Assembly: GCA_015484595.1 (NCBI GenBank)
Contig: WFMM01000104.1
Location: 1 to 32,428 of the forward strand
DNA length: 32,428 nucleotides
DNA from: Nitrospirota bacterium
GTDB taxonomy: Bacteria > Nitrospirota > Thermodesulfovibrionia > Thermodesulfovibrionales > JdFR-85
Direction: 5' to 3'
Within the stretch, counting starts at the first letter, position 1. Each line of letters begins with the position of its first letter. Positions 16,316 through 28,877 of the stretch are shown piece after piece. The notes below the pieces were generated by a model. The model searched no databases. It was not told the DNA's origin and worked only from the letters and a program-made list of their open reading frames with translations. The position numbers and the translations under genes were made by a program.

Positions 16316-16385
16316 GAAAAAAGGACTTTTCAGCCCTCTGGTTGTCATAAGAGGCATTTTCTGATATCTTATTAGTATGGGGACT

Positions 16386-16569
16386 CAAAGGGGCTTTGCC
16401 CCTTTGGAACCCCAATAAGGATAAATAATTGATCATATTTGGAGAGTTTGAGGGGGCTCTGCCCCCTCAAAGGGGCTCTGCCCCTTTGGAACCCCGATAA
16501 TGATTAATAATTTAACCATAGTAGGGAGTTTGAGGGGGCTACGCCCCCTCAAAGGGGCTCTGCCCCTTT
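16386..16569. repeat. 82-bp tandem repeat array of GC-rich hairpins
   Basis: Two full 82-bp units (starting 16386 and 16468) and a partial third (16550) lie in the iorA to Lrp-like gap. Each unit holds two near-perfect stem-loops: AAAGGGGC/GCCCCTTT with a 3-nt loop (16387-16405, 16469-16487, 16551-16569) and TTTGAGGGGGC/GCCCCCTCAAA with a 3-nt loop (16447-16471, 16529-16553). Adjacent hairpins share the CAAA. The AT-rich spacers between hairpins have diverged while the stems are conserved. There is no coding potential. Confidence 0.85.
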
Positions 16570-16601
16570 GGAACCCCAAATTAATGAATAAATATTTAAC
16601 C

Positions 16602-16624
16602 TTGAGCCTGTCGAACAGGCTCAA
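16602..16624. repeat. REP-like palindrome TTGAGCCTGT-CGA-ACAGGCTCAA
   Basis: A palindrome with 10-bp arms and a CGA centre lies just after the tandem array and about 12 nt before the Shine-Dalgarno of the Lrp-like gene. Its arms share GAGCCTGT/ACAGGCTC with the left end of the MITE-like elements at 20528 and 28064. Confidence 0.75.
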
Positions 16625-16646
16625 ATTAAGAAGGGAGGGATTACTA

Positions 16647-20422: not shown

Positions 20423-20452
20423 TTAAACCTCCATCTTTATTAAATTCTAAAT

Positions 20453-20484
20453 ATAGCGTGTAGGGGGTAGCGTGTAGGGTATAG
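20453..20484. repeat. GTGTAGGG-type repeat between infA and rpmJ
   Basis: The words AGCGTGTAGGGGGTAGCG and GTGTAGGGTATAG lie between the MITE-like element and rpmJ. Only the GTGTAGGG half of the composite repeat is present, on the opposite strand to the copies after livG and livH. Confidence 0.6.
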
Positions 20485-20527
20485 TATATACTTCATTACG
20501 CTTATTCACCACCTCCTACATCTTTTA

Positions 20528-20633
20528 GAGCCTGTTCAACAGGCTCTAACTTACTGATTTTTAATTAATATAATTCCTTATTCCAAAAATCTTTTACCCC
20601 CAGTGTATATCCTCAGTTTTCTTGAACAGCCTC
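20528..20633. mobile_element. MITE-like non-coding element, short copy (infA-rpmJ gap)
   Basis: A 106-bp element with ends GAGCCTGTTCAA and TTGAACAGCCTC (11 of 12 complementary). It is flanked by the direct repeat CTTTTA (20522-20527 and 20634-20639), consistent with a target-site duplication. The left end extends into the palindrome TTAGAGCCTGTT-C-AACAGGCTCTAA. It is nearly identical to the copy at 28064-28220 but lacks an internal segment of about 54 bp and carries a 3-bp insertion. No coding frame. Confidence 0.8.
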
Positions 20634-20676
20634 CTTTTAACGATTAACGCTGGATATTCACAATGTTAAGTCTGAC

Positions 20677-28036: not shown

Positions 28037-28063
28037 TGCTTTATACCTCGCTTTGTATTCACT

Positions 28064-28220
28064 GAGCCTGTTCAACAGGCTCTAACTTATTGATTTTTAA
28101 TTAAAATTCCTTATTCCAAAAATCTTTTACCCTTAGTATCTAAACACCAAAAATCTACTATTTTCGGGGCTCTGGGGGCGAAGCCCCCAGTGTATATCCT
28201 CAATTTTCTTGAACAGCCTC
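28064..28220. mobile_element. MITE-like non-coding element, long copy (rpsC-rplP gap)
   Basis: A 157-bp element bounded by GAGCCTGTTCAA and TTGAACAGCCTC and flanked by a perfect 8-bp direct repeat TATTCACT (28056-28063 and 28221-28228). The left end is the palindrome GAGCCTGTTCAACAGGCTC. An internal hairpin CTGGGGGC-GAA-GCCCCCAG lies near 28181-28199, within the segment missing from the short copy at 20528-20633. No coding frame, so any movement would need a transposase elsewhere. Confidence 0.85.
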
Positions 28221-28223
28221 TAT

Positions 28224-28877
28224 TCACTTTATGCTCTTTTGCTCAAGCACATCGCCTTTGTAAATCCACACCTTTACGCCAATCACTCCATATGTGGTCT
28301 TTGCCTCTGCAAAGCCATAGTCAATGTCTGCCCTGAAGGTATGAAGCGGAACCCTTCCGTCACGGTACCACTCACGACGGGCAATCTCTGCACCTGCAAG
28401 CCTTCCAGCTGCCTGCACCTTTATGCCCTGAGCACCAAACCTCATTGCTGCTGCAACTGCCTTCTTCATTGCCCTTCTGTAGGCAACCCTCTTTTCTATC
28501 TGCAAAGCTATGTTTTCAGCAACGAGCTGTGCATCAAGCTCAGGCTTTCTTATCTCCTTTATGTCAATGCTTACATTCTTGCCTGTCATTGCCACTATCT
28601 CTTTCTTTAGCTTTTCTACCTCCACACCCTTCTTACCTATAATAATTCCAGGCCTTGCCGTGTGTATGATAATCCTGACCTTCTGTCCTTCCTTCTCTCC
28701 AAGCCTTTCAATCTCTATCCTTGAAATACCAGCATGGTATAGTTTGTTCTTTATATACTTCCTTATACGCAGGTCTTCATGTAACTGTTCACCATAACCC
28801 TGCTCTCTGTACCACCTGGAATCCCATGTCCTTATGATACCTATCCTGTTTCCTATCGGATGAGTCTTATGTCCCAA
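28224..28877 (-). CDS. rpsC: 30S ribosomal protein S3
   Basis: 217 residues: [22 protein letters not shown] domain around [20 protein letters not shown], and the C-terminal domain with [20 protein letters not shown] and [20 protein letters not shown]. The start is TTG at 28877 after CTGGGGGTG. Its TGA stop (28226-28224) lies inside the 8-bp direct repeat flanking the MITE-like element. Confidence 0.98.

Follow-up and report, generated by a model that had tools for sequence, protein, structure and literature searches.

Short, probably MITE-like repeats placed at a set distance from Shine–Dalgarno motifs in a Nitrospirota genome

Three repeat copies in the window

The window, a 32,428-nt stretch from a draft Nitrospirota genome (2.11 Mb in 170 contigs), contains three copies of a short repeat, all of them directly upstream of a Shine–Dalgarno (SD)-like sequence. 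Copy A, a 106-bp short form delimited by sequence comparison, lies between infA and rpmJ on the plus strand (20528–20633), palindromic left end first. Its 19-bp palindrome GAGCCTGTTCAACAGGCTC, which has no strand and was recognised by pattern search and folding, occupies 20528–20546 and forms the end with the variable joint. Flank identity reveals a CTTTTA target duplication on the gene-proximal (20522–20527) and the far side (20634–20639), both on the plus strand, and on the rpmJ side a minus-strand GGAGG motif (20512–20516) lies 5 nt from the duplication. The rpmJ gene now has a second SD closer to its start than this GGAGG. Between the motif and the rpmJ start there are ~80 bp with an internal repeat, TAGCGTGTAGGG (20428–20510), which do not occur in the same-genus genome G001 and may be a second insertion or duplication in the infA–rpmJ spacer.

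Copy B, the 157-bp long form, occupies the rpsC–rplP spacer in the same orientation (28064–28220, plus strand). It is flanked by the target duplication TATTCACT on its gene-proximal (28056–28063) and far side (28221–28228), both on the plus strand, and CGAGG, the SD of rplP, is found on the minus strand (28046–28050), 5 nt from the duplication. Copy A lacks 54 bp of copy B (28130–28183, plus strand), a gap bounded by CCC microhomologies that removes the CTGGGGGC hairpin, and has three additional bases near its left end and a few substitutions. A preliminary description of this DNA had reported the two matching copies, their positions and common orientation, the CTTTTA duplication and a CCC-bounded deletion of the hairpin part, and all of this is confirmed, with exact coordinates. 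Both the SD-adjacent placement, the feature that says most about the family, and the third copy were absent from it. This third copy is decayed and runs on the minus strand, opposite to A and B, from about 16378 to 16622; it comprises several GC-rich hairpin modules and a palindrome (16604–16622), and precedes the GGAGG (16634–16638) of a gene encoding an Lrp/AsnC domain.

Copies A and B are independent insertions, as had been supposed: their duplications differ, their flanks are unrelated and the alignment between them ends at the element borders. At the copy B site G001 carries one uninterrupted TATTTACTTAATACTC in the rpsC–rplP spacer, and this empty site identifies copy B as a clean insertion. 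An origin by segmental duplication, the alternative named in the preliminary description, is thereby excluded for copy B and unlikely for copy A, given its unrelated flanks. The infA–rpmJ spacer of G001 is about 25 bp long and free of the element.

Conserved ends and a variable interior

Around 40 copies of 63 to about 364 bp are present in the source genome, a figure that under-counts palindrome-less copies because the copies were located through the palindrome. BLAST with copy B returned 53–69 matches in the genome, and the 19-bp palindrome GAGCCTGTTNAACAGGCTC occurs at 47 sites with at most three mismatches versus none for a reversed control pattern; six 3-mismatch sites that looked like chance were dropped and 41 sites were analysed. 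Chance would not produce anything near this level of matching. The left end of the element combines the palindrome with an AT-rich block and the right end resembles GTGTAAAACCCTTGATTTTCTTGAACAGCCTC; the terminal inverted repeats GAGGCTGTTCAA and GAGCCTGTTCAA match at 11 of 12 positions. The interior may be free of GC-rich hairpin modules or contain several, repeating every ~81 bp or so, and internal deletions that leave the ends intact are seen among the copies. In some copies (C110:152, C36:1083) a different hairpin module, CCCCGTGGCnnGCCACGGGG, replaces the usual GC-rich one. The elements share their ~81-bp hairpin-pair module (CAAAGGGGCnnnGCCCCTTTG / GAGGGGGCnnnGCCCCCTC) with another repeat, whose ends read TTTACGAAAACTGCC, in genome G010 of another genus. 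The copy at position 1501 of stretch L018 has parS-like palindromes, TGTTCCACGTGGAAC(A), on both sides.

The elements are short, non-coding and multi-copy, with terminal inverted repeats and with target duplications that are significant by permutation, though 5–10 bp long instead of one length. The earlier suggestion of a short, non-autonomous family is supported by these repeats and duplications, and that of recent activity by copies which are 93–95% identical across their full length. As to whether the short form is a subfamily of its own, the 106-bp form is found at two loci, copy A (C104:20528) and C83:2878, and looks like one sub-lineage. Since the deletion point is identical at both loci and the extra A/T bases are shared, the short form has probably transposed as such, with modest branch support. 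We do not claim that solo palindromes are separately inserted units of 19–29 bp, as a clear flanking repeat was found only at C15:6646 (p about 0.02).

The distribution of the family is narrow. Two of 176 genomes of the order match, the source genome and G011, and the same-genus G001 lacks the element. One G011 copy lies 13 nt before a GGAGG; its apparent 8-bp duplication GAGATTTT was discounted, since a second G011 copy contains these bases internally. The palindrome is absent from viral contigs, in which there are 14 exact matches to the far end of the element. Exact palindromes in unrelated genomes, mostly one per contig, were taken as unrelated. Several Tenacibaculum species and Calditrichia/Calditrichales carry the exact palindrome at one site per stretch, perhaps as a conserved unrelated hairpin.

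Target choice at the Shine–Dalgarno motif

Oriented by the palindrome, the insertions share the context X-dup-[GAGGCTGTTCAAG ... GAGCCTGTTGAACAGGCTC]-dup-N5-GGAGG-start codon. Along the reading direction of the adjacent gene, the palindromic end stands ~10–13 nt before the SD, nearly always in this one orientation, and an exact GGAGG follows the palindrome at about 5–16 nt in 31 of the 41 copies. At that distance beyond the non-palindromic end neither GGAGG nor CCTCC was found (0 of 20 copies). Duplications, called by flank identity alone, reached a total score of 83, whereas 20,000 permutations averaged 23.5 and never exceeded 55. Among the 11 strictest insertions, duplication length (5–10 bp) tracks the palindrome–SD spacing (10–15 nt) with a rho of 0.93, and the inner edge of the duplication lies 5 nt from GGAGG in nine of the 11 clearest cases and 4 nt in the other two. 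Shuffled duplication lengths matched this fixed offset in 8 per 100,000 trials (p 8e-5). The offset rule is drawn from 11–14 readable insertions, and the weaker duplications at C57, C83:2878 and C53 also have an offset of 5. Many copies had been proposed as a means of determining the true duplication length; there is no single one, and the family ranges from 5 to 10 bp with one edge fixed. The difference between the 6 bp of copy A and the 8 bp of copy B is explained by a pair of joints of which GGAGG fixes one and leaves the other loose. Statistically, a GGAGG-like motif, as a rule the SD of a gene, sets both the orientation and the position of insertion. A conventional MITE belonging to a known IS family, with a preference for A/T-rich TA targets that happens to coincide with 5′ leaders, is a very improbable source of this pattern. 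Roughly half of the sequences following the palindromic end do begin with TA and the leaders are AT-rich, but such a preference accounts neither for the constant spacing from GGAGG nor for the one orientation and the SD-free other end.

One fixed and one variable joint are what is expected of R2/L1-type insertion, which raises the possibility of a retro-element, a bacterial SINE-like unit that inserts as an RNA copy through target-primed reverse transcription. The gene-sense strand would first be nicked site-specifically, 5 nt ahead of GGAGG, to prime cDNA synthesis at the non-palindromic end; imprecise nicking in the second step would account for the variable duplications and for some copies truncated at the palindromic end. 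A few copies do have this form: C15:11397 and C10:21424 keep the non-palindromic end and are truncated at the palindromic one, close to the SD. Against this route, both ends are retained in most copies, it would not be expected to give matching terminal inverted repeats, and neither the source genome nor its same-genus relative contains a reverse-transcriptase domain (RVT_1); we regard it as unlikely.

The position of the elements also invites a functional reading, in which a hairpin before the SD is kept by selection as a regulatory RNA leader that controls or stabilises many mRNAs. In G001, the leaders of rpsO and of the gene behind the third window copy consist of a promoter-like region followed by the SD within about 10–15 nt. 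At both loci of the source genome the element sits between these two, and is therefore predicted to be transcribed within the leader. In the SD leader the palindrome forms a stable hairpin, extended where the target starts with TA(A). At several loci it has outlasted the remaining parts of the element, the palindrome-only loci including the cysK, aspS, tusA and skp leaders, and in two copies (C21:9514, C125:1192) paired changes preserve the stem. The downstream genes include rplP and, from reading translations, rpsO, rpsR, rplU, dapA, cysK, aspS and glgC, among which no common pathway is evident by eye. A known Rfam RNA was rejected, as no match exceeded the gathering score and the one hairpin match stayed below it (32.5 versus 117 bits). 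A promoter or terminator element was likewise rejected, copies A and B having no match to a sigma-70-like promoter or a terminator consensus. Selection for a leader RNA gives no reason to expect a constant 5-nt edge alongside duplications of varying length; insertion itself is demonstrated by the target duplications and the empty site, and the element is missing from the same-genus relative. The insertion at C152:58960 follows the same rule and precedes no gene, that side being occupied by the 3′ end of a gene on the opposite strand, with a GAAGG 5 nt from its duplication. Selection for translation can hardly account for this, which argues for recognition of DNA. Position as a consequence of function is therefore improbable.

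Mobilisation and comparison with known elements

The family has two conserved ends, whose terminal inverted repeats are nearly identical, around an interior that varies; target duplications flank its insertions, and for copy B the empty site is seen as well. We consider it likely that it is a non-autonomous, MITE-like family that recently multiplied in this Nitrospirota species, inserted with guidance by GGAGG and mobilised in trans. Target choice is the best-supported step of the mechanism. A putative trans-acting enzyme would bind the element ends and recognise GGAGG in DNA, fixing the distance of one strand transfer and leaving that of the other flexible. The non-palindromic end (GAGGCTGTTCAAG) is joined 5 nt 5′ of GGAGG and the palindromic end (GAGCCTGTTCAACAGGCTC) 5–10 nt farther upstream, often at TA, which yields the variable duplications. 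The inverted repeats fit strand transfer of the DDE type in which the second joint is loosely spaced. The SD may serve as a safe landing site, even in essential operons; since it is left intact, with AT-rich sequence and a short hairpin before it, the gene should stay translatable after insertion.

Several points speak against the MITE-like explanation. Practically one species is sampled, and duplications of varying length are not what a classical transposase usually leaves. No autonomous copy or mobilising enzyme was found: none of the end sites found in the draft assembly belongs to an autonomous copy, which may be lost or unassembled, and the enzyme search, which covered the domains DDE_Tnp_1, Y1_Tnp (PF01797) and RVT_1, returned no match to the first two in profile searches of the genome, as for RVT_1 above. 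The gene after C13:29842 was rejected as a transposase; its start looks transposase-like by eye, and its C-terminus reads as a DnaJ-type domain. The enzyme thus appears to be lost from the genome, unassembled, or of a family other than those searched.

The family shares with prokaryotic MITEs such as MITEAba12 of Acinetobacter the short, non-coding form, the terminal inverted repeats, the target duplications and the near-identical multiple copies. MITEAba12 makes 9-bp duplications at targets without a sequence trend (PMC6382973), unlike the duplications of 5 to 10 bp and the GGAGG-set target seen here. Correia elements of Neisseria are also short and lie mainly just upstream of genes, and they carry promoters (PMC10969869). 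The gene-upstream position is common to both families, whereas the ends differ and copies A and B have no sigma-70-like promoter. The YPAL/RU-2 elements of Yersinia have internal palindromes and duplications of 3–26 bp, and their targets span or adjoin dyad symmetry (PMC2229807); palindromes and variable duplications are thus shared, but YPAL has neither an SD target nor such terminal inverted repeats. REP/REPIN sequences are extragenic palindromes too, and likewise depend for their spread on an enzyme acting in trans, a Y1-type RAYT transposase. Y1 elements are not known to create target duplications, in contrast to the family described here, in whose host genome no Y1_Tnp domain was found. 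In the open-licence PubMed Central literature no bacterial repeat was found described as inserting at a set distance from an SD, and the target rule appears to be new relative to known MITE-like elements.

A more far-reaching proposal, which we put forward tentatively, is that the element uses the SD as a genomic address and is inserted asymmetrically by an enzyme outside the common transposase families, spreading through essential operons without silencing them. If true, an SD-reading enzyme would have very many sites at its disposal that do not disrupt coding sequence, since most bacterial genes have an SD. Yeast retrotransposons target safe sites at tRNA genes, and SD targeting would be a bacterial analogue of this strategy. 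The proposal makes the 5-nt rule a testable prediction and points to a further integration enzyme, and the insertions illustrate how repeats can remodel the 5′ leaders of essential genes.
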